17,698 bases of DNA, from contig JAGUYA010000041.1 in NCBI GenBank assembly GCA_020061545.1, forward strand, positions 1-17,698. The letters run 5' to 3'. The DNA is from Candidatus Omnitrophota bacterium (GTDB lineage: Bacteria; Omnitrophota; Gorgyraeia; Gygaellales; Profunditerraquicolaceae). The translations under genes and the position numbers were made by a program. A model generated the notes under the pieces. The model did not search any database and was not told the origin of the DNA. It saw nothing but the letters and a program-made list of their open reading frames with translations. Shown piece by piece: positions 6,460-17,698 of the stretch (positions are counted from its first letter, which is position 1; each line of letters opens with the position of its first letter).

Positions 6460-6515
6460 TAAGACCACAGTAATTCAGATTTCTTTCTTGTACTTCTAGG
6501 CCCCGCTCTCAATTA

Positions 6516-6635
6516 TGTAAAATTCATAGATATACGTATTTAGCGGGTGGCTGGGGTGTTTTCGAAGCGCGTAATGCGCGAGAAAATACCCCAGACAGGA
6601 CCCGCTAAACAGTTAGAACATCTCTGGATTTTACA
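6516..6635. repeat. 120 bp nested imperfect palindrome upstream of lysS
   Basis: Three nested arm pairs share a centre near 6574. The outer pair is TGTAAAATTCATAGAT (6516-6531) with ATCTCTGGATTTTACA (6620-6635), two mismatches. The middle pair is TTTAGCGGGT (6539-6548) with ACCCGCTAAA (6600-6609), perfect. The inner pair is CTGGGGTGTTTTC (6551-6563) with GAAAATACCCCAG (6582-6594), one mismatch, capped by a GCGC-rich tip. No T-run follows, so it is not a standard intrinsic terminator for htpX, though it could still stop or protect the transcript end. It could equally be a dispersed non-autonomous element. The rest of the 231 nt gap holds no gene. Confidence 0.75.
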
Positions 6636-6652
6636 TTCTTACCATTTTCTAA

Positions 6653-8166: not shown

Positions 8167-9356
8167 TGAAGACAGAACTATTTATCAGTTGGCGTTATCT
8201 GATGACCAAAAGAAAGGAAAAATTCATTTCCCTGATTAGCATTATCTCTATTTTAGGAATAGCTATAGGTGTGATGGCTTTGATTGTGGTGATTGGGGTT
8301 ATGACCGGCTTTGATAAAGACCTGCGCGATAAGATTGTAGGTAACTATGCGCATATTACCCTGACGAGTTTTCAAGGTATAGAGGATAAAGAATACAATG
8401 AGATATCCAAAAAGGTCTCTGGCTACCCCCACATCAAGGGTATCAGCCCTTATGTCCAGGGCCAGGTTTTAGTGAAAGAAGGGAAGCGTTTCCTGGCTGT
8501 GGGTTTAAAAGGGATAGAGCCTTCTATGGAATCCTCAGTTACCGAGATAAAGAAATATGTGACCAAAGGTGATATTAATAGCCTGGGTGAGGATTGCGTA
8601 ATTATCGGTAAGGAATTAGCCGCATATTTAGGATTGGGCTTAAATTCTATTATTGTCACCTATTCGCCTTTTGGCAAAGAGCGTAATTTAAAAGTGGTAG
8701 GCATATTTAATTCAGGGATGTATGATTACGATTTAAACCTTATCTTTACTAATCTTAAGACGGCCCAGGGGATATTAGGCTTAAATAATCAGTTCAGTGC
8801 TATAGCCATAAAATTAGATAACCTGTATTTAGCGGATAAGATAAGGGATGAGCTTAGTAATGTTTTAGGTTTTGATTATAATCTGAAGACCTGGATAGAG
8901 GTAAATCAGAATTTCTTTGCTGCCTTAAAATTAGAGAAACTGACTATGTTTATAATTTTGACCTTGATTATCCTGGTTGCCTCTTTTAATATCATCAGCA
9001 CGTTGGTGGTAATGGTGGTAGAGAAAACCAAGGATATCGGGATATTAAAAGCCATAGGCATGGCCTCTGCGAGGATTAGAAATATTTTTACCTATGAAGG
9101 TCTGATTATCGGAATTCTCGGTACTTTTTTAGGCACAGCGGGCGGGATACTGTTGTGCGGTTTATTAAAAAAGTATCAGTTTATAAAATTGCCTCAGGAT
9201 ATATATTATATTGACAGGTTACCTGTATCCATAGAATTCTGGCCGGATATTGCTTTGATTATCCTGGCAGCACTGGTGATTACCTTAATCTCAACTATTT
9301 ATCCTGCAAGCAAGGCGGCAAAATTAAAACCGGTTGAGGCATTAAGGTATGAATAG
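8166..9356 (+). CDS. lolC: Lipoprotein-releasing ABC transporter permease (LolC/LolE family)
   Basis: A 396-residue inner-membrane permease that, with LolD, extracts outer-membrane-destined lipoproteins. It has the family pattern: membrane helix 1 (about 20-45, with ISIISILGIAIGVMALIVVIG), a large periplasmic domain (about 50-255) and three C-terminal helices within the FtsX-like domain (about 258-285, 310-335 and 355-385). The cytoplasmic coupling segment reads EKTKDIGILKAIGM, and the end SKAAKLKPVEALRYE is typical. It overlaps lysS by one base. Only one permease gene is next to lolD, so a homodimer in the style of LolF systems or a second permease gene elsewhere are both possible; LolC versus LolE cannot be decided. 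Confidence 0.9.
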   Translation: MKTELFISWRYLMTKRKEKFISLISIISILGIAIGVMALIVVIGVMTGFDKDLRDKIVGNYAHITLTSFQGIEDKEYNEISKKVSGYPHIKGISPYVQGQVLVKEGKRFLAVGLKGIEPSMESSVTEIKKYVTKGDINSLGEDCVIIGKELAAYLGLGLNSIIVTYSPFGKERNLKVVGIFNSGMYDYDLNLIFTNLKTAQGILGLNNQFSAIAIKLDNLYLADKIRDELSNVLGFDYNLKTWIEVNQNFFAALKLEKLTMFIILTLIILVASFNIISTLVVMVVEKTKDIGILKAIGMASARIRNIFTYEGLIIGILGTFLGTAGGILLCGLLKKYQFIKLPQDIYYIDRLPVSIEFWPDIALIILAALVITLISTIYPASKAAKLKPVEALRYE

Positions 9357-9368
9357 AATAACTTTAAA

Positions 9369-9470
9369 GGTTACCCAAGGTTACAAGAGGTTAATCGAGG
9401 TTACAAGAAGTTGCTTTTTAGTAACCTCCTGTAACATCTTGTAACTTCCTGTAACCTCTTTCAACATCTC
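9369..9470. repeat. 10 bp-period foldback tandem repeat, lolC/lolD junction
   Basis: GGTTA recurs at 9369, 9379, 9389 and 9399, with a degenerate fifth unit at 9409. After the spacer TTTTTA, GTAAC recurs at 9421, 9431, 9441 and 9451, with a degenerate fifth unit at 9461. The consensus word is roughly GAGGTTACAA on the left and its reverse complement on the right, so the whole is a hairpin of about 40 imperfect pairs. Aligning the halves by eye gives about 29 of 38 matching positions. It fills the gap between the two genes and ends 1 nt before the lolD ATG, which has no ribosome site of its own. Confidence 0.85.
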
Positions 9471-9471
9471 A

Positions 9472-10149
9472 ATGATATTAGAGGCTAAAAACATACACAA
9501 GGTTTATCATAACGGAAACAAGGAATTAAAAGTATTAAAAGGTATAGATTTAAGTATCGATAAGGGTAAGTTTGTAGCGATAGTCGGTCCATCTGGCGCA
9601 GGTAAATCCACATTGTTACATATCCTGGGTGGTTTAGATATGCCGACGAGGGGCGAGGTTATTTTTGAACAGAGAGATATCTATCACCTAAGCGATGTCG
9701 AACTTTCTAAAGTGAGAAACGAAAGGATAGGTTTTGTGTTCCAGTTTTACCACCTGTTATCTGAATTTACGGTTTTAGAGAATGTACTTATGCCGGCATT
9801 GATTAGTTGTCAGTTGTCAGTTGTCAGTTGTCAGTTGAAAGAAGAAGCATTAAGACTTTTGAATGAGGTGGGATTAAGCCAAAGAATTAGACATTTTCCG
9901 AGTCAGCTTTCCGGAGGAGAACAGCAGAGAGTGGCGATTGCGCGCGCATTAATAAATAGACCAAGCTTACTTTTGTGCGATGAACCTACGGGTAACCTTG
10001 ATTCCCAGGCAGGAGAGGAGATCATCTCATCGATTAAGAAAATAAACCGGGAAAACGAGATGACGGTGATTTTAGTCACGCATAATTTGGAATTAGCAAA
10101 AGTAGCCGAAAGTGTATACCATTTAAGAGACGGAATTTTGATGAATTGA
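9472..10149 (+). CDS. lolD: Lipoprotein-releasing ABC transporter ATPase
   Basis: A 225-residue ATP-binding subunit that powers LolC-type permeases on the cytoplasmic face. The Walker A motif is GPSGAGKS (39-46), the LolD-type Q-loop region reads FVFQFYHLLSEFTVLENV, the signature is LSGGEQQR, Walker B is LLLCDEP followed by TGNLD, and the switch histidine is in VTHN. Length and sequence fit LolD closely. Residues 112-122 (SCQLSVVSCQL) are encoded by a 7 bp tandem repeat lying between the Q-loop helix and KEEALRLL, where other LolD proteins have a short variable loop. There is no Shine-Dalgarno sequence; the ATG follows directly after a foldback repeat. Confidence 0.94.
   Translation: MILEAKNIHKVYHNGNKELKVLKGIDLSIDKGKFVAIVGPSGAGKSTLLHILGGLDMPTRGEVIFEQRDIYHLSDVELSKVRNERIGFVFQFYHLLSEFTVLENVLMPALISCQLSVVSCQLKEEALRLLNEVGLSQRIRHFPSQLSGGEQQRVAIARALINRPSLLLCDEPTGNLDSQAGEEIISSIKKINRENEMTVILVTHNLELAKVAESVYHLRDGILMN
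9805..9837 (+). repeat. 7 bp tandem repeat within lolD
   Basis: The heptamer AGTTGTC occurs four times in perfect tandem (9805-9832), followed by a partial AGTTG (9833-9837). The tract is exactly 33 nt, begins at a codon boundary and encodes 11 residues with a 7-residue internal period. A change of one unit would shift the frame, while a change of three units would keep it. Perfect copies suggest recent expansion. Heptameric tandem repeats (STRR) are known from cyanobacteria; no relation is claimed. Confidence 0.9.
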
Positions 10150-10277
10150 GGATATTGGGTGATTTGGGTATCAGGTTTTGGAAATTAGGATATTGGGTGA
10201 TTTGGTAAAATAGAAATATTCCCAATACCCGGATCCCCTAATATCCAAATCCTAATATCCCAATAACCAAATCACCT
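10149..10277. repeat. ~8 bp-word foldback repeat, lolD/ilvE junction
   Basis: The word AGGATATTGGGTGATTTGG occurs at 10149-10167 and again at 10187-10205, joined by related GG-delimited words. The second half (10218-10277) uses complementary words, such as CCTAATATCC, CCAATACCC, CCAATAACC and CCAAATCACC, spaced by about 8 bp. The two halves can fold into a long imperfect hairpin. It starts on the last base of the lolD stop codon and ends 18 nt before the GGAGG of ilvE. A TATAAT at 10287-10292 follows but lacks a good -35 box. Confidence 0.8.
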
Positions 10278-10305
10278 TAATAATTTTATAATAACGGAGG
10301 TGTTG

Positions 10306-11175
10306 ATGAAAGTATATATTAACGGGAAATTTTACGAGAAAAACGATGCCAAGATTTCTGTGTTTGACCACGGTCTTTTATACGGTGATGGCGTGTTTGA
10401 AGGAATACGTTCTTATAACCGTTTGGTTTTTAAGTTAAAAGAGCATATTGACAGACTCTTTGAATCTGCACACACCATAATGTTAGAGATCCCGCAAAGT
10501 AAACAGGAGCTCATTAAGGCAGTGCTGTTAACTTTAAAAGAGAATAATCTCAAAGATGCCTATATCCGTCTTATAGTCACCAGGGGCGAGGGAGATTTAG
10601 GGCTTGACCCGCGTAAATGTAAAGGCAAGGCTACGGTGATAACTATTGCTGACAAAGTAGTTTTGTATCCGGAGAAATTCTATAAAGAGGGACTCCAGAT
10701 CATTACAGTGCCTACGATAAGAAATCTTCCGGAGGCGCTTAACCCCCAGATAAAGTCTCTCAATTATTTGAATAACATCCTGGCTAAAATTGAGGCAGTA
10801 AATGTTGGAGTTGATGAGGCAATTATGTTAGATTTCTTGGGTTACGTTGCCGAATGCACGGGCGATAATATTTTTATTGTTAAACAGAACCATCTCTATA
10901 CACCGCCGCAATGTATGGGTACTCTAAGAGGAATTACGCGCGATACAGTTTTGGAGATTGCCCGGAAAAGCAAAATCCCGGTGCATGAGCATGTGCTTAC
11001 GCGGCATGAGGTGTATATTTCTGATGAATGTTTTTTAACCGGCACTGCTGCCGAAATTATACCAGTGGTAAAAGTGGATGGCCGGATGATTGGAAGTGGC
11101 AAGCCAGGTAAACTTACCTTGAGTTTAATGAAGAAGTTTAAAGAGCTGACGAAGAAAGAAGGAGTAAAGTATTAA
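10306..11175 (+). CDS. ilvE: Branched-chain amino acid aminotransferase (class IV PLP)
   Basis: A 289-residue cytoplasmic aminotransferase that interconverts Leu, Ile and Val with their 2-keto acids using glutamate and 2-oxoglutarate. Fold-type IV marks are DHGLLYGDGVFEGIR near residues 22-36, an Arg-containing RLIVTRGEGDLGLDP region, the PLP lysine K150 in IKSLNYLNNILAK, and the C-terminal ECFLTGTAAEIIPV. Length fits IlvE; D-amino-acid aminotransferase is a less likely reading. ATG 10306, 5 nt after GGAGG, is chosen over the GTG at 10300, which lies within the ribosome site. It is preceded and followed by foldback repeats, and its position between lolD and mcsA looks like simple operon packing rather than pathway clustering. 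Confidence 0.92.
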   Translation: MKVYINGKFYEKNDAKISVFDHGLLYGDGVFEGIRSYNRLVFKLKEHIDRLFESAHTIMLEIPQSKQELIKAVLLTLKENNLKDAYIRLIVTRGEGDLGLDPRKCKGKATVITIADKVVLYPEKFYKEGLQIITVPTIRNLPEALNPQIKSLNYLNNILAKIEAVNVGVDEAIMLDFLGYVAECTGDNIFIVKQNHLYTPPQCMGTLRGITRDTVLEIARKSKIPVHEHVLTRHEVYISDECFLTGTAAEIIPVVKVDGRMIGSGKPGKLTLSLMKKFKELTKKEGVKY

Positions 11176-11236
11176 GATTAAGGTTAAGATTAAGGTTTAG
11201 GTTTTTCACTTAACCTCAGTCTTAATCTCAATCTTA
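11174..11236. repeat. 6 bp-period foldback tandem repeat, ilvE/mcsA junction
   Basis: Starting within the ilvE stop codon, the left half is AAGATT, AAGGTT, AAGATT, AAGGTT, TAGGTT (11174-11203). After a short T-rich turn, the right half reads AACCTC, AGTCTT, AATCTC, AATCTT (11212-11235). Both halves keep a strict 6 bp period and are near reverse complements of each other. The hairpin ends 20 nt before the mcsA ATG and leaves the ACGGAGG ribosome site free. Confidence 0.85.
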
Positions 11237-11255
11237 TGTTATATACGGAGGAGTT

Positions 11256-11774
11256 ATGCTTTGTGATATTTGCGGTAAGAATCCCGCTACTGTGCATTTA
11301 ACCGAGATTATTGACGACCAGATGAGCGAACTGCACCTTTGTGAAGAATGTGCGCATCAGAAAAGTTTACAGATGGAACAGCAGTTTGGATTGAGCGATC
11401 TTTTAGCCGGCCTGGTCGAGTTTGAGAAACCCGTGAAAGATACAGAACCCGTAGGTGTAAAATGCTCAAGTTGCGGGCTTAGTTACGCAGATTTTAAGAA
11501 GATAGGGAGGTTGGGTTGCGGCGAATGTTATAATGCCTTCAGAAAATATCTGGGAGTATTATTAAAGAAGATCCACGGTTCCAACCAGCATGTAGGCAAG
11601 TCGCCACTTAAGGTGACTAAGGTCTTAAAGAAAAAGATAGATTTACAGGAATTACGTCGCCGGCTCCAGCAGGCAATTGAGATGGAGGCGTTTGAAGAGG
11701 CAGCTAAGATTCGTGACCAGCTCAGAGAACTGGAGAAAAAATCAGCGCAGGGCGATAATGAGGCAAAGGAGTAA
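11256..11774 (+). CDS. mcsA: McsA, zinc-finger and UVR-domain activator of protein arginine kinase
   Basis: A 172-residue cytoplasmic protein. Four CxxC pairs form two zinc-binding units: C3/C6 with C29/C32, and C70/C73 with C88/C91. A UVR motif lies at about 130-160 (LRRRLQQAIEMEAFEEAAKIRDQL). This is the exact McsA layout, in which the zinc fingers and UVR segment stimulate the McsB kinase and help load ClpC. The gene has GGAGG 5 nt ahead of ATG 11256 and is followed after one base by mcsB, then by clpC, the order known from Firmicutes. CtsR, the usual first gene there, is missing, and no CtsR operator-like GGTCAAA direct repeat was seen. Confidence 0.94.
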   Translation: MLCDICGKNPATVHLTEIIDDQMSELHLCEECAHQKSLQMEQQFGLSDLLAGLVEFEKPVKDTEPVGVKCSSCGLSYADFKKIGRLGCGECYNAFRKYLGVLLKKIHGSNQHVGKSPLKVTKVLKKKIDLQELRRRLQQAIEMEAFEEAAKIRDQLRELEKKSAQGDNEAKE

Positions 11775-11775
11775 A

Positions 11776-12825
11776 ATGGAACTAAATGACCTTTTAAATC
11801 ACACTAGTGAGTGGTTGAAAGATACAGGTCCGCATGCAGATATTGTGCTCTCCAGCCGCATACGCTTAGCCAGGAATTTAGATAAAGTTCCTTTTCCGCA
11901 CTGGGCGAATAAGAAACAAAGTGAGCAGGCCTTAAAGACAATTAATGAGGCTTTGGTGAATGTGGAGTTTCTCAAAAAGGCACTGTTCCTTAAATTAGCG
12001 GATTTAGACAGCATAGATAAACAATTCTTAGTGGAAAGACACCTGATGTCTCTTGAGCATGCGCAGAGGACAGATCATAAAGCAGTAGTCATCGATGAAG
12101 AAGAGAGAGTGGCGATAATGGTTAACGAGGAAGACCATATCCGCATGCAATACATGCAGTCGGGATTTAATCTCTTTGATGCCTGGAACAACATTAACAA
12201 GATAGACGACAGCCTGGCTAATGAATTACATTTTGCCTTCTTGTCAGACTGGGGCTATCTGACTGCCTGTCCTACCAATGCTGGCACAGGTATGCGCGGT
12301 TCAGTGATGTTACATCTACCGGCACTGGTCATGTCCGGTCAGATTAACCGCGTGTTAGCTGCTCTTGCCAAATTGAGTTTTACCACGCGCGGTCTATACG
12401 GCGAAGGCACACAGGCCACAGGTAATTTCTTTCAGGTCTCCAATCAAGTATCTTTAGGACATGGTGAAGGCGAAATTATTGAAAATATTAATGGTATTAT
12501 TAATCAGATCATTACACAAGAAAATCAGGCCAGAGAAACCATGCTGGCGCGAAATAAAGCGGCTTTAGAAGATAAAATTAATCGCAGTCTGGGTATCCTT
12601 AAGAGCGCGCACATTATCACCAGTCAGGAAACTATAGAGCTCTTATCTATGGTAAGATTAGGTTGCGACCTGGGGATGATTAAAGAGCTCAACCGACGCA
12701 CGATAAATGAATTATTTATTATTACCCAGCCTGCGCATCTACAGAAAATAGAGAATAAAAAGCTTTCTGCTCAAGAAAGGGATGTGAAAAGGGCAGAGTT
12801 AATTAGAAATAAACTGATGATGTAG
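11776..12825 (+). CDS. mcsB: Protein arginine kinase McsB
   Basis: A 349-residue ATP:guanido phosphotransferase-fold kinase that phosphorylates arginine in proteins, marking them for ClpC-ClpP. Visible motifs are [10 protein letters not shown] (25-34), the catalytic NEEDH loop (117-121) followed by IRMQ, the nucleotide/active-site CPTN (C165) with GTGMRGSV, and the C-terminal RDVKRA (335-340) that matches the RDxxRA phosphoarginine-sensing motif of Firmicute McsB. An in-frame upstream extension overlapping mcsA is rejected because MELNDLLNH gives the family's normal start and has AAAGGAG 4 nt upstream. Retention of both catalytic and allosteric motifs argues for an active kinase. Confidence 0.95.
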
Positions 12826-12845
12826 CAATATATAATGGAGGGGCA

Positions 12846-15257
12846 ATGTTTAATCGATTTACAGAGAGAGCCAGAAAAGTAATTATCTTGGCCAAGGAAG
12901 AGGCCAGGCGTTTTAATCACGATTATATCGGAACAGAGCATATACTTCTGGGTTTGGTCCGTGAAGGCGAAGGTGTAGCAGCAGCTGTATTGCAGAAGTT
13001 GGGCGTTTCTTTAGAAAAGATACGCCTGGAGATTGAGAAGTTAGTGCAGCCTGGACCCACAACACAAATTATCGGAGATATACCTTTTACCCCCCGCGCA
13101 AAGAAGGCCTTAGAATTAGCTGCAGAAGAAGCGCGGTCATTAGGGCACAATTATATCGGCACAGAACATCTTCTATTAGGGCTTATACGCGAAGGCGAAG
13201 GTATGGCCTCTCAGGTATTATTAAATATGGGATTAGATTTAAATACATTGAGAAACGAAGTTATGGAACTCTTGGGTTCGGCATTGCCTAGCTTTGGTCA
13301 AGCGCAACCCAAGACAAAGACTCCGGCATTGGATGCCTTTGGTAGAAACCTGGCTGAATTAGCTAGAGACAATAAACTTGACCCCGTAATTGGCCGGCAC
13401 AATGAAATTGAACGGGTTATTCAGATATTAAGCAGGCGCACCAAGAATAACCCGGTTTTATTAGGCGAGGCCGGAGTGGGAAAGACGGCCATTGTAGAAG
13501 GTCTGGCCCAGGCCATTGTGGCGGGAAATGTTCCTGAGATATTACGCAATAAACGTATCATTGTTTTAGATTTGGCTCTTATGGTTGCGGGAACAAAATA
13601 CCGCGGTCAATTTGAGGAAAGAATCAAGGCAGTGATGGAAGAAATAAAACGCTCTCAGGATGTCATTATTTTTATTGATGAATTACACACGCTCGTGGGC
13701 GCGGGTGCAGCAGAAGGCGCAATCGATGCCTCGAATATTTTAAAACCCGCACTTTCCCGCGGCGAGATGCAGTGTATCGGCGCGACCACTATGGATGAAT
13801 ACCGAAAATATATTGAAAAGGATGCGGCATTAGAAAGAAGATTCCAGACCATTATGGTTGAGCCGCCCTCTGTGGAACAGACAATCGAGATATTAAAAGG
13901 CCTGCGGGATAAATATGAGGCACACCATCGGGTGACCTTTAAAGATGAGGCATTAGAGGCAGCAGCAAAATTATCTGACCGTTATATATCAGGCAGGTTC
14001 TTGCCGGATAAGGCAGTGGATATAATTGATGAGGCAGGTGCGCGCGCCAGATTAAATGTTTTAGTGGTGCCGCCTGAGATCAAGAAACTGGAAGAAAAAG
14101 TAGAGACAATAAGAAAGGAAAAAGAGGCCTTTATCAAGAGTCAGGATTTTGAAAAAGCAGCCTCATTCAGAGACCAGGAGAGGCAGGCGCGCCAGGAGTT
14201 AGAACAATTGAACCGCGAGTGGTCGCAGGCCAAAGATAAAATGCGGCCCGAAGTAGGCGAGGAAGAGATTGCTAAGATTGTTTCTCAATGGACAGGTATC
14301 CCCATATTCAGGTTAGAAGAAAAAGAGGGCGAGAAATTATTAAAGATAGAGGAAGAACTGCATAAACGCGTAGTGGGCCAGGATGAGGCGATAGGTGCGA
14401 TTGCTCATGCGGTTCGGCGTTCGCGGGCAGGTATCAAGGACCCGAAAAGGCCCATTGGTTCATTTGTATTTTTAGGTCCCACAGGCGTGGGTAAGACCCT
14501 TTTAGCCCGCGCTTTAGCAGAATTTATGTTTGGCGACGAAGATGCGCTTTTACAATTAGATATGTCAGAATATATGGAAAAATTTAATGTCTCCCGTCTC
14601 ATCGGCGCTCCGCCTGGATATGTGGGTTACGAAGAGGGCGGGCAACTTACTGAGAAAGTCAGGCGCAGGCCTTATGCAGTAATATTATTGGATGAAATTG
14701 AAAAGGCGCATCCGGATGTATTTAATCTCCTTCTTCAGGTATTTGAAGACGGCCGGCTCACGGATAGTTTTGGCAGGAAAGTGGATTTTAAGAACACGGT
14801 GATCATTATGACTTCTAATATAGGCGCGGATTTAATTCGTAAAACCAGTTCTTTAGGTTTTAAAGCTCAGAAAGATAAGATAACTTATCAGGAAATGAAA
14901 GAAAAATTACTGGAGGAAGTAAAGCGCACTTTTAAACCGGAGTTCTTAAACCGCATAGATGACACTATTGTTTTTCAGCCGCTGGTAAAAGAGGATTTAC
15001 AGCGTATTATTGATATCGAAATAGGTTTTGTGGCTGAGAGGCTCAAGGACCACAATATCACTTTGGATGTGACACCTGAGGCAAAGGAATTCCTCATTGA
15101 GAAAGGCTTTGACCCTATATTTGGCGCCAGGCCCTTAAAAAGAACAATACAAAGGTTCCTGGAAGACCCTTTAGCCTCGGAAATAATCTCCCAGAGGTTT
15201 CAAGAAGGTTCGACGGTGAAAGTATTACGCCATAATCAAGAGCTGGTTTTTGAATAA
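12846..15257 (+). CDS. clpC: ClpC-type AAA+ unfoldase
   Basis: An 803-residue double-ring ATPase that unfolds substrates for ClpP. Residues 1-145 hold two Clp N repeats, each with GTEH; E31 and E107 correspond to the phosphoarginine-binding glutamates of B. subtilis ClpC (E32, E106). AAA1 has GEAGVGKT (207-214); the middle domain includes a UVR-like helix ([15 protein letters not shown], around 440); AAA2 has GPTGVGKT (544-551). Length fits ClpC rather than ClpB, whose middle domain is longer. GGAGGGG precedes ATG 12846, 20 nt after mcsB. The N-domain glutamates, McsB and McsA together support a complete arginine-phosphate degradation route. The stop overlaps the next start (TAATG). Confidence 0.96.
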
Positions 15258-16039
15258 TGAAAAAACTATTCTTAATTTTAGGTAAAAAGGTGCTGGCCTT
15301 TTTCTCGTTTTTGGGGAGTTTAAGTACTTTAGCAATTCAGACTTTTTACTGGTTGTTTATCCCGCCCCTGAAAAAAGAGCGCATCTTTGAACAATGCAAG
15401 AAAGCAGGTATGGATAGTCTGCCTATAGTTTCCCTGATTGCTTTCTTCATCGGTGTGATTATGGCGTTGCAGACTGCCTATCAAATGCAGCGGCTGGGAG
15501 CTGAGATGTACATTGGCAGCATTGTGGCGCTTTCTATGGTCAGAGAACTGGGGCCGGTTATTACTGCGCTCGTCGTGGCAGGTAGAGTAGGCGCAGCCAT
15601 TACCGCTGAAATTGGCTCTATGCAGGTCACCGAACAAGTAGATGCCCTGCAGACACTCGCCACCAGCCCCATAAAATATCTGGTAGTACCGCGCCTTTTA
15701 GCTTTGTGTATAATGGAGCCGCTCTTAACGTTGTATGCCGATATCATCGGTATATTCGGTGGTTATCTTATCTGTGTAAATAAATTAGGCGTTTCTTCGG
15801 GCATGTATCGGTATATTACCTTTAGCGCCCTGCTCTACAAAGATTTATTCACCGGCCTGTTTAAGGCAGTATTTTTCGGCATGATCATTGCCTTTGTGAG
15901 CTGTTATGAAGGATTCAAGGTAGAAGGCGGGGCAGAGGGTGTGGGTAAAGCCACGGCGCGGGCGGTAGTAACTATGTTTATTCTGATTATTGCCTGTGAC
16001 TGTTTCTTCACTGCCTTATTTTATTTTATCTTCCCATAA
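15257..16039 (+). CDS. mlaE: MlaE-family ABC transporter permease
   Basis: A 260-residue inner-membrane permease for MCE-type lipid transport between inner and outer membrane. It has an amphipathic N-terminus, then hydrophobic helices and the family core GAEMYIGSIVALSMVRELGPVITALVVAGRVGAAITAEIGSM (split here as GAEMYIGSIVALSMVREL and GPVITALVVAGRVGAA) followed by VTEQVDAL, hallmark of MlaE/YrbE. It starts on the last base of clpC's stop and is followed after one base by its ATPase gene mlaF; mlaD comes next. Orthologues of MlaA, MlaB and MlaC are not in the window. Confidence 0.93.
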   Translation: MKKLFLILGKKVLAFFSFLGSLSTLAIQTFYWLFIPPLKKERIFEQCKKAGMDSLPIVSLIAFFIGVIMALQTAYQMQRLGAEMYIGSIVALSMVRELGPVITALVVAGRVGAAITAEIGSMQVTEQVDALQTLATSPIKYLVVPRLLALCIMEPLLTLYADIIGIFGGYLICVNKLGVSSGMYRYITFSALLYKDLFTGLFKAVFFGMIIAFVSCYEGFKVEGGAEGVGKATARAVVTMFILIIACDCFFTALFYFIFP

Positions 16040-16040
16040 G

Positions 16041-16802
16041 ATGATAGAAATAAGAGAACTGACCAAAACATTCAATACGCATAAAGTCTTAGATAATCTT
16101 AATCTTACTATTGAAAAAGGGACCACCTGTGTGATTATCGGCCGTTCAGGTTGCGGTAAATCCGTTTTATTAAAGCATATTGTGGGCATATTAAAACCAG
16201 ATAGCGGTCAAGTCTTTGTGGATGGCTTAGACATCGGCAGATTAAACGAAAAAGAATTAGATAATTTGAGGCTCAGAATTGGATTAGTTTTTCAAGGCGG
16301 CGCGCTCTTTGATTCTTTAACCGTGGGTGAGAATGTAGGGTTCGGCCTTATCGAACATACCAAAATTAGCCAGAAAGAATTATTGGAAAGGATAGAAGAG
16401 GCATTGTCTTTGGTGGGGTTGGGCGGTATTGTAAATCTTACGCCTGCGGAGTTAAGCGGCGGGATGAAAAAACGTGTGGCTTTGGCCCGCGCAATATGCA
16501 TAAAACCGGATATTATATTTTATGATGAACCTACAACCGGTGTTGACCCGATTACAGCAGATAGCATAAATGAACTGATCAAAAGTCTTCATGATAAATT
16601 AAAGGTTACCTCTGTTGTAGTAACCCATGATATGAAAAGTGCATACAGAGTAGCGGATAAAATCTCTATGCTTTATCAGGGTAAGATTATTGCTCAAGGG
16701 TCCCCGGAAGAAATCCAGAATACCCAGCATCCCGTAGTACACCAGTTTATCAACGGATTAGCACAGGGTCCGATTACGGAAACACTGGAAGAGTTCAGAT
16801 AA
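16041..16802 (+). CDS. mlaF: MlaF-family ABC transporter ATPase
   Basis: A 253-residue cytoplasmic ATPase paired with MlaE. Walker A is GRSGCGKS (34-41), the Q-loop region reads GLVFQGGALFDSLTVGENV, the signature is the MlaF/Ttg2A-type LSGGMKKRVALARA, Walker B is IIFYDEP followed by TTGVDP, and the switch histidine is in VVTHDM. The start MIEIRELTK at 16041 is chosen over an in-frame ATG at 15990, which would overlap mlaE by 50 nt and add a tail without family similarity. No clear ribosome site is present, so coupling to mlaE translation is likely. Confidence 0.93.
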   Translation: MIEIRELTKTFNTHKVLDNLNLTIEKGTTCVIIGRSGCGKSVLLKHIVGILKPDSGQVFVDGLDIGRLNEKELDNLRLRIGLVFQGGALFDSLTVGENVGFGLIEHTKISQKELLERIEEALSLVGLGGIVNLTPAELSGGMKKRVALARAICIKPDIIFYDEPTTGVDPITADSINELIKSLHDKLKVTSVVVTHDMKSAYRVADKISMLYQGKIIAQGSPEEIQNTQHPVVHQFINGLAQGPITETLEEFR

Positions 16803-16810
16803 AATATTTT

Positions 16811-16930
16811 TGATGTTACACGAAGTTACAGGATGTTACAAGACGTTACATGAGGTTACGAAAAATCTGTCTATCAACAGACAAGTAACTTCTTGTAACC
16901 TTGATTAACCTCTTGTAACTTCGAGTAACC
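16811..16930. repeat. 10 bp-period foldback tandem repeat, mlaF/mlaD junction
   Basis: GTTAC recurs at 16815, 16825, 16835, 16845 and 16855 within the word GAnGTTACAn. The complementary GTAAC (TTAAC once) recurs at 16885, 16895, 16905, 16915 and 16925. The loop carries a small hairpin of its own, TCTGT with ACAGA. The word matches that of the lolC/lolD junction 7.4 kb away, with the same period, copy number (5+5) and orientation. The ACGGAGG ribosome site of mlaD lies just outside the repeat. Confidence 0.87.
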
Positions 16931-16950
16931 TATCAATACGGAGGTTATAA

Positions 16951-17574
16951 ATGATATTCGGTCAATCAAAATTAGAATTAAAGGTAGGGATTTTTGTTTT
17001 TACAGGTCTTTTGATTTTGACGATTTTTGTTTTATCCATCGGAGACTTTAAGACTATGACTACTGGCTACGAGCTTAACTTTATTTTTAACTTTGCCAAT
17101 GGCGTCAAAATCGGCGCTCCGGTAAGATTTGCCGGAGTGGATGTGGGAGAGGTTAAGGTGATAAACTTTGTTACCGCAGCGGATAATCCTAAACCTAAAG
17201 TACAGATAGTCTGTTCCATTAATAAAACTGTAAAGGTCCCTGTTGACTCAAGCATCTGGGTAAACACTTTAGGCTTATTAGGTGAAAAATATATTGAGAT
17301 TATGCCCGGCAAAGAGTATGACAATACTCTCGCGCCAAAAGGGACTCTCGTGGGTGTTGACCCTATTCCCATGCAAGACGTCTCTGTGTTAGCCAAAGGT
17401 ATTGCCCAAAATTTAAATGAGGGACTCCTGAAGATAGTCAATAGAGAAGGCACGGTCGGTAAACTTCTTTATGATGATACGATATATAAGGAATTAGAGG
17501 CATTGGTTATAGATATAAGAAAACATCCCTGGAAATTGTTCTGGAAGGGGAAAGAGAAGCCAGAGAAAAAATAG
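16951..17574 (+). CDS. mlaD: MlaD-family MCE-domain lipid-binding protein
   Basis: A 207-residue inner-membrane-anchored periplasmic protein. One N-terminal helix (about 11-30, [20 protein letters not shown]) is followed by a single MCE domain (about 37-120) with [19 protein letters not shown] and [11 protein letters not shown], typical of MlaD/Ttg2C, which assemble as hexameric rings binding lipid beneath MlaE-MlaF. A short helical tail follows ([22 protein letters not shown] in parts). GGAGG lies 7 nt before ATG 16951. The gene completes the mlaE-mlaF-mlaD set and is separated from mlaF only by the foldback repeat. Confidence 0.93.
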
Positions 17575-17579
17575 ATTAT

Positions 17580-17698
17580 ATGAAGACCAAGACAGTATTT
17601 GCTTGTCAGGAGTGTGGCTATCAGTCTCCCAAATGGCTGGGCAGATGCCCTGATTGTAATAGTTGGAATTCTTTTGTGGAGGAGGATTATGTTGTGCC
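17580..17698 (+). CDS. radA: DNA repair protein RadA, N-terminal zinc finger, truncated by window edge
   Basis: The frame starts at ATG 17580, 5 nt after the mlaD stop, and stays open to the right edge (39 codons visible). It reads [20 protein letters not shown] and then NSWNSFVEE, the four-cysteine zinc finger (C9, C12, C23, C26) that opens every RadA/Sms protein. RadA is a RecA-like, DnaB-like ring ATPase that extends branches in recombinational repair; those domains lie outside the window. No clear ribosome site is seen. Confidence 0.93.

Follow-up and report, generated by a model that had tools for sequence, protein, structure and literature searches.

The stretch of DNA considered here, referred to below as the window, comprises 17,698 nucleotides (nt) of contig JAGUYA010000041.1 (assembly GCA_020061545.1) from a Candidatus Omnitrophota bacterium. 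It carries a run of genes, namely lysS, lolE, lolD, ilvE, mcsA, mcsB, a Clp ATPase gene, mlaE, mlaF and mlaD, and four of the junctions in this run are filled by periodic foldbacks, in which an array of a short tandem word is followed by the inverted array of the same word (Table 1). Several of the best models that name members of the run score below the curated cut-offs, and the names McsA and ClpC are probable ones, given from the UVR motif and the gene order. An earlier note on this DNA had described, at these four junctions, tandem repeats with words of 10, ~8, 6 and 10 bp, each followed by its reverse complement. All four tracts are present, with coordinates off by a few bases only, and the words were found to be 10, 8, 6/12 and 10 nt long, each array being followed by its inverted counterpart. 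The stop codon of ilvE falls inside the first unit of element 3.

Table 1. Positions of the periodic foldbacks and direct arrays (window coordinates, unless a locus is named)
Feature	Position	Strand	Word or family	Location and remarks
Foldback element 1	9368..9457	+	GTTAC 10-mer family	lolE-lolD; arms 9368-9410 and 9414-9457
Foldback element 2	10145..10281	+	~8-mer word	lolD-ilvE; overlaps lolD stop; inner arms 10154-10189 and 10237-10272
Foldback element 3	11173..11236	+	TTAAG 6/12-mer family	ilvE-mcsA; arms 11173-11200 and 11209-11236
Foldback element 4	16810..16936	+	GTTAC 10-mer family, other orientation	mlaF-mlaD; arms 16810-16859 and 16885-16936
Direct array	9805..9837	+	(AGTTGTC)x4.7	inside lolD coding sequence; without inverted half
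ispD loop array	L123, near 2720			ispD coding sequence
ispD loop array	L014, near 20115			ispD coding sequence
ispD loop array	L036, near 17212			ispD coding sequence
ispD loop array	L041, near 20695			ispD coding sequence
ispD loop arrays	L047, L060, L176, L021, L025			ispD coding sequence

An ungapped inverted-repeat scan missed two of the four window elements, and gapped folding was therefore adopted; to count as a periodic foldback, a tract had to be periodic, to form a gapped foldback and to show periodicity in each arm. The gapped foldback score was 35 for the gap of element 1 (mean of 20 dinucleotide shuffles 13.9, maximum 19), 37 for that of element 2 (19.0 and 31) and 47 for that of element 4 (14.8 and 24). 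The gap of element 3 was left out of this test, being mis-bounded with mcsA uncalled (genes were called as greedy longest open reading frames, and the caller dropped mcsA). The RNA folding z-scores of elements 1-4 were -6.9, -3.5, -7.0 and -8.2, with none of 200 shuffles as good for any element; the weakest is the 8-mer element 2, whose excess over dinucleotide shuffles is more modest than that of the other three. Arm complementarity is imperfect, at 73-78% for elements 1, 2 and 4 in an inverted-repeat search that did not list element 3.

The window belongs to a metagenome-assembled genome (MAG) of 868 kb in 184 contigs, 76% complete, which is labelled G000; G001 is the second genome assigned to its genus, and further labels in G or L denote genomes or operon loci compared. 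The sample of G000 consisted of 41 contigs (213 kb of the 868 kb), six of them picked for carrying copies of the 10-mer. The operon loci were the best 80 from a search of genome contigs with the branched-chain aminotransferase, 79 being labelled Omnitrophota, Omnitrophica or WOR_2 and one 'bacterium'. Periodic foldbacks numbered 21 in the G000 sample (17 non-coding), 35 in 730 kb of G001 (31 non-coding) and 37 in the operon loci (32 non-coding, 5 coding), where they were found in 20 of the 80 loci. Over 1.13 Mb of G001, 43 non-coding elements were counted, with periods of 8 (21 elements), 7 (14), 9 (6) and 10 nt (2). The four window elements are not special to their operon. About half of the non-coding periodic tracts carry an inverted half (43/76 in G001, 17/28 in the G000 sample and 32/69 in the operon loci). 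One periodic foldback was found in the 140 kb examined of a Nostoc plasmid and none in 100 kb of E. coli K-12. That the tracts are chance low-complexity sequence or an assembly artefact, which the fragmented and incomplete state of the MAG might suggest, is hardly credible, as dinucleotide-shuffled sequence gave no periodic foldback in 0.33 Mb and none in 0.61 Mb, and the same design recurs in independent assemblies from many studies, with one element in a record whose title calls it a chromosome (L061, CP070837.1).

A unit consists of a fixed core and variable positions. Among 93 GTTAC-anchored units of the 10-mer family in G000, in which the anchored positions are conserved by construction, position 9 is A in 83%, and positions 7 and 10 are mixed. 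The two arms of an element change independently of each other. One arm of the G001 TAGGT element consists of near-perfect GACCTAA repeats and its other arm of mixed units, and an element common to L081 and L085 shows, by eye, whole-unit differences in both arms. On permuting the unit order of one arm, an order shared between the arms was detected at p<0.05 in 12 of 65 testable elements, with a median p of 0.36; the likeness of the two arms comes mainly from the one degenerate word that both use. The single design that had been suggested for the four junctions thus holds for the succession of array and inverted array at all four, but unit order is only weakly common to the arms. Snap-back copying at each site, one of the causes proposed earlier, is unsupported as a general origin, because the two arms show little register and, in several families, entire elements are copied. 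It is possible that template switching keeps the arms alike. At the ilvE-mcsA junction of L050 (10871-10981), a TAAGC foldback was seen by eye to lie within the loop of another foldback, of CTAAA type.

Three of the four window elements belong to families of dispersed copies. The 10-mer family of elements 1 and 4 was found at 10 places in G000 and matches 8 of 285 Omnitrophota genomes; its query has no match in G001, which has its own related 10-mer (GTTCCATAAG type). The 6-mer family of element 3 occupies 13 places in G000 and none in G001. Copies of one family share the order of their units in four of the five families tested (one of the four has three copies only), the mean z being 2.98 for GTTAC10 (21 pairs, 7 copies), 2.07 for GTRTCA8 (45 pairs), 9.4 for five copies in L038 (10 pairs) and 3.33 for TTAAG6 (3 pairs). 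Both orientations occur. For GTTAC10 the orientation is consistent in 21/21 pairs, element 1 being reversed relative to the other six copies, while the 12 GTRTCA8 copies of G001 are divided 6:6 relative to transcription (53/66 pairs agree with the assignment) and seven of them have the centre AAAAACTTTG in common, on either strand. Nine elements of the CAAATGA 7-mer family, from five loci, align with the same irregular unit and centre, and this family crosses species. It matches 85 of 285 Omnitrophota genomes, a figure that counts whole or partial matches and not whole elements, as three candidates were scored per genome and many cover part of the query.

Within the reach of the contigs, most of the 80 loci conserve the gene order of the operon, so that orthologous junctions can be compared directly. 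A survey of 521 such junctions (seven kinds, 82 loci), which excluded mlaE-mlaF and mlaF-mlaD and in which L090 had no way of counting as periodic, found 370 shorter than 35 nt, 137 of 35-300 nt and 14 above that range. Among the 137 junctions of intermediate length, a periodic foldback occurs in 30, a strong foldback of another kind in 40 and neither in 67. Empty sites show that elements are gained or lost between species of one genus. The ilvE-mcsA junction is 80 nt long in the window, where it holds element 3, and 2 nt long in G001; in G105, where a CAAATGA element is present, it has 135 nt, as against 1 nt in two genomes of the genus of G105. At mlaF-mlaD, G001 has no element (taaaacggaggctataaa including the stop codon). 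Other junctions are occupied again with a different word. The junction of element 2, lolD-ilvE, holds in G001 a GTRTCA 8-mer foldback, and at lolE-lolD the window has its 10-mer, G001 a TAGGT 7-mer and L026 a direct AAGTTAT array without inverted half, L036 being empty. Of the non-coding elements in the G000 sample, 16 are same-strand, and for 13 of them adjacent orthologs were available in the examined part of G001; the G001 junctions were short in four cases, carried an array with another word in six and held other, non-periodic sequence in three.

Over 74 orthologous junction pairs of G000 and G001, arrays were present in both genomes at 10, in G000 only at 7, in G001 only at 8 and in neither at 49 (odds ratio 8.75, p = 0.0005), the array detector used for these pairs being looser than the foldback detector and some co-occupied junctions having a direct array in one genome. 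Without the six contigs picked by BLAST the four counts become 6, 3, 7 and 41 (57 pairs, p = 0.003), and with both gaps of at least 40 nt they are 9, 3, 2 and 8 (p = 0.03). This co-occupancy is partly a matter of permissive junctions, because long gaps are themselves shared between the two genomes (22 in both, 11 in G000 only, 10 in G001 only and 31 in neither). The words differ at 10/10 co-occupied junctions on manual reading, the pair at L152 being two related 10-mers. The turnover of words between orthologous junctions, which had been put forward as a check, is thus found in a comparison between species.

The elements had been described as starting near the stop codon and ending before the next ribosome site or start. 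This placement is largely a by-product of short junction gaps (370/521 being shorter than 35 nt), but the first units do enter the stop codon beyond expectation: they match it at 2.02 of 3 bases, against 1.67 with the stops permuted (49 elements; 0/2000 permutations as high). A match to a ribosome site is no commoner at filled junctions (21/30) than at tight ones (274/370). A portable stop codon as the general purpose of the elements was rejected by eye, since the words GTTACAAGAG and GTGTCAAAG lack a stop in the 5' arm. A shared tail with a ribosome site was likewise considered as a part of the element and rejected, the tails differing within one genome. GTGTAAG-type arrays followed by similar tails (gagcgac..ggagc) with a ribosome site occur in two species, at ilvE-mcsA in L023 and L026 and at lolD-ilvE in L026.

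The strong predicted folds of the four window elements could also be those of inter-cistronic RNA hairpins under selection for a role in processing, in mRNA stability or in downstream translation, another of the causes named in the earlier note, and the flanking genes are co-oriented at most elements (38/42 typed, G001). We consider this improbable. The share of 38/42 is that of same-strand junctions in general (0.907), and the same-strand enrichment is not significant (p = 0.09 by length). A crude excess of G-U over A-C mismatches in the arms (121:88, p = 0.027) is gone against a shifted-register control (240:180), the largest G001 family is divided 6:6 relative to transcription, and orthologous junctions are mostly tight or filled with other sequence. 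No Rfam family reaches threshold in 9001-17698; the one match, on the minus strand over element 4, has an E-value of 0.57 and 16 bits against a cut-off of 41. In the same interval, none of 11 sites resembling an intrinsic terminator (a G+C-rich stem and a T run) lies within the four elements. The proposal that such hairpins are selected is therefore left unsupported by the equality of the G-U excess with its control, the mixed orientation and the lack of significant same-strand enrichment.

We lean towards reading the tracts as small non-autonomous foldback elements with slippage-prone arms, which are tolerated at gene junctions. Among the three causes proposed earlier, the strongest support goes to a non-autonomous family whose words can change, given its dispersed ordered copies, both orientations, empty sites and word differences. 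An element is a unit of ~40-160 nt made of two short-word arrays, inverted around a loop, and a given genome holds several families that differ in word and in period (6-10 nt). A putative mobiliser would copy whole elements to new junctions in either orientation, and movement of the elements is likely. They would survive where a spacer between a stop codon and a ribosome site does little harm, selection clearing them from most places except gaps and loops, and would have no positive function. The arms would then change through gain, loss and homogenisation of whole units by slippage, with template switching between the arms probably helping the word to drift as a block. As elements are lost and permissive junctions refilled, different words would come to stand in orthologous gaps, and direct arrays of the same words would enter protein loops in frame.

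It may instead be that the arrays arise in place, by local slippage from a short seed, often at a stop codon, with the inverted half made by snap-back or template switching and with no transposition, the words being swapped by repeated misalignment or by gene conversion from other arrays. This explanation, which we hold to be credible but doubtful, draws on the entry of array units into the stop codon, on the different words at co-occupied junctions and on the coding array of lolD. A match to lolD was obtained in 81 loci, of which 67 were parsed, and the homologous loop has near-perfect 7-mer arrays in 7/67 genes, with five words in seven species and all loops of 19 residues. Arrays at sites homologous to that of the window were found in L014, L021, L026, L036, L071 and L090; 13 other loops of 19 residues have no clear array, and L032 has a weak one. 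The tree built on lolE, ilvE, McsB and Clp pairs the window with G001 (support 100) and L026 with L036 (support 98), yet AGTTGTC is shared by the window and L036 and AGTTACG by G001 and L026, so that the distribution of the words conflicts with the species tree. The window and L036 agree at every base over 30 nt of the array, the whole gene being 79% identical. Template switching that homogenises the arms of inverted repeats is described (PMC8604942, PMC8794818, PMC7202029). An origin in place is opposed by the likeness of whole elements among unrelated junctions, including unit order and, for one family, a shared centre, and by the poor register of the arms.

The loop of ispD (TIGR00453) that follows TIK also speaks against an origin in place. 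With 39 matches and 27 parsed loops, ten pass a threshold of lag-7 or lag-8 identity of at least 0.5, and exclusion of L038, whose 9-residue loop is too short to judge, leaves arrays in 9/27 loops, with nine words. These loops measure 12-18 residues, against 9-11 residues in 15/18 loops without arrays (the exceptions being 15, 25 and 32). A site similar to the ispD array loop was seen in hypF of G001 and G210.

The direct arrays of the lolD and ispD loops turn over in their words as the junction arrays do, and coding and non-coding arrays share words within a genome. In G001, 28/39 coding words differ by at most one mismatch from a non-coding word of G001 itself and 2/39 from a G000 word, a comparison between unequal pools of non-coding arrays (173 in G001 and 60, about one third, in G000). 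Four of the eight coding arrays in the G000 sample match words of their own genome and two those of the other genome. The word AACGACC was noticed in six coding arrays of G001. An undescribed word-writing process has also been considered, by which each genome would keep a small vocabulary of 6-10 nt words and lay it down as direct arrays in protein loops and as foldback arrays in junctions, overwriting older words, with the vocabulary shifting as a whole between close species; we regard this as unlikely.

Several points tell against non-autonomous foldback elements. Empty sites are only 1-2 nt long, so that a target-site duplication cannot be read from them; TA stands at both ends of several CAAATGA copies, which the palindrome alone would also lead one to expect. 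By eye, the ends showed no motif in common, though no scan for a terminal tetranucleotide tag was made. The 8-mer element 2 is single-copy, being found neither elsewhere in G000 nor in G001 (E<=0.001), the TAAGC7 copies have no shared unit order (mean z 0.88, 21 pairs), and the unit-order z values were all computed over non-independent pairs. The orientation of GTTAC10 is split 6:1, not 1:1, and lolD arrays at unchanged loop length look more like rewriting in place than insertion. No transposase could be tied to the elements, only PF01797 and PF00078 having been searched. A Y1 transposase (RAYT) was found twice in G001 and not in G000 (76% complete), and hand counts gave a Y1 match in 74/85 genomes with the CAAATGA family (absent in 11) and in 157/200 others (absent in 43). 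Reverse transcriptase, also counted by hand, is no commoner in the former (19/85) than in the latter (43/200). As candidate partners, neither of the two enzymes showed a clear link. With regard to carriers, the CAAATGA family, the sole family tried, gave no exact pattern match in viral contigs and no match in phages; six plasmid records match it over ~51 nt, one of them being the Nostoc plasmid.

Short tandem words are known from other bacteria. The STRR of cyanobacteria are heptamer direct repeats; they were reportedly treated by Mazel in 1990, and small dispersed repeats by Elhai in 2008. TAACTGA, the heptamer of a further case, is not among the words of the four elements or of the lolD array, and none was found in the word lists (for non-coding arrays, the top 25 and 20 words). 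In PMC4679880, TAACTGA repeats are reported from Beggiatoaceae and Cyanobacteria as intergenic arrays, some of which overlap stop codons or lie inside open reading frames, with a patchy distribution across phyla, and the BOGUAY genome is given one word in 169 direct sets and one indirect repeat. The arrays considered here differ from what is described there: each genome uses many words, roughly one in two non-coding tracts has an inverted half, and the words at orthologous sites are not the same.

The earlier note knew of no named element with exactly this design. As far as searched, this stands for bacteria: no foldbacks of tandem words were recognised in the bacterial literature covered, which mostly lies outside subscription journals. 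It does not stand for eukaryotes, whose foldback transposons (Drosophila FB, Tetris, Galileo-like) have inverted arms with internal tandem repeats, according to PMC4079207. The likeness extends, in that text, to tandem repeats of variable copy number in arms around a middle domain, to non-autonomy and to dispersal; Tetris arms are up to 1,735 bp long with words of ~220 bp, whereas here the arms are 18-67 nt, the words 6-10 nt and the hosts bacterial. Features of foldback-type elements found here are tandem-repeat arms, dispersed whole copies (not for element 2) and empty sites in relatives, between species. The REP/REPIN sequences and bacterial MITEs are similar as small dispersed extragenic palindromes (PMC3116915, PMC3733652), but the arms here are arrays of tandem words, and no dependence on a Y1/RAYT gene was seen. 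Quasipalindrome template switching makes imperfect inverted repeats more alike (PMC8604942, PMC7202029); it is a mutational mechanism and not an element, and the register of the arms is weak here. The comparison points to small bacterial foldbacks of tandem words with fast word turnover, a little-described class of repeats.

On this account, operon spacers in many members of the phylum would be filled, emptied and refilled, fast enough to differ within one genus, which affects the reading of intergenic DNA, hairpin predictions and small-RNA calls in MAGs. It also offers a bacterial system in which the birth of arrays, the formation of the inverted half and the replacement of words can be followed at many homologous sites. 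Coding arrays, with five words in the lolD loop and nine in the ispD loop, show that the same kind of array alters protein sequence.

Non-periodic REP-like hairpins occur as separate families alongside the periodic foldbacks. In the window, a non-periodic dispersed repeat of ~117 nt at 1881-1997 (within 1840-2040) recurs at nine or more other places in G000 (78-97% identity) and, as a weaker copy, in G001; it sits in a larger foldback and has a MITE-like look. Another dispersed non-periodic hairpin family (GCGGGTGGC...GTTTTC) is represented at 6505-6645; it recurs elsewhere in G000 and has many places in G001.

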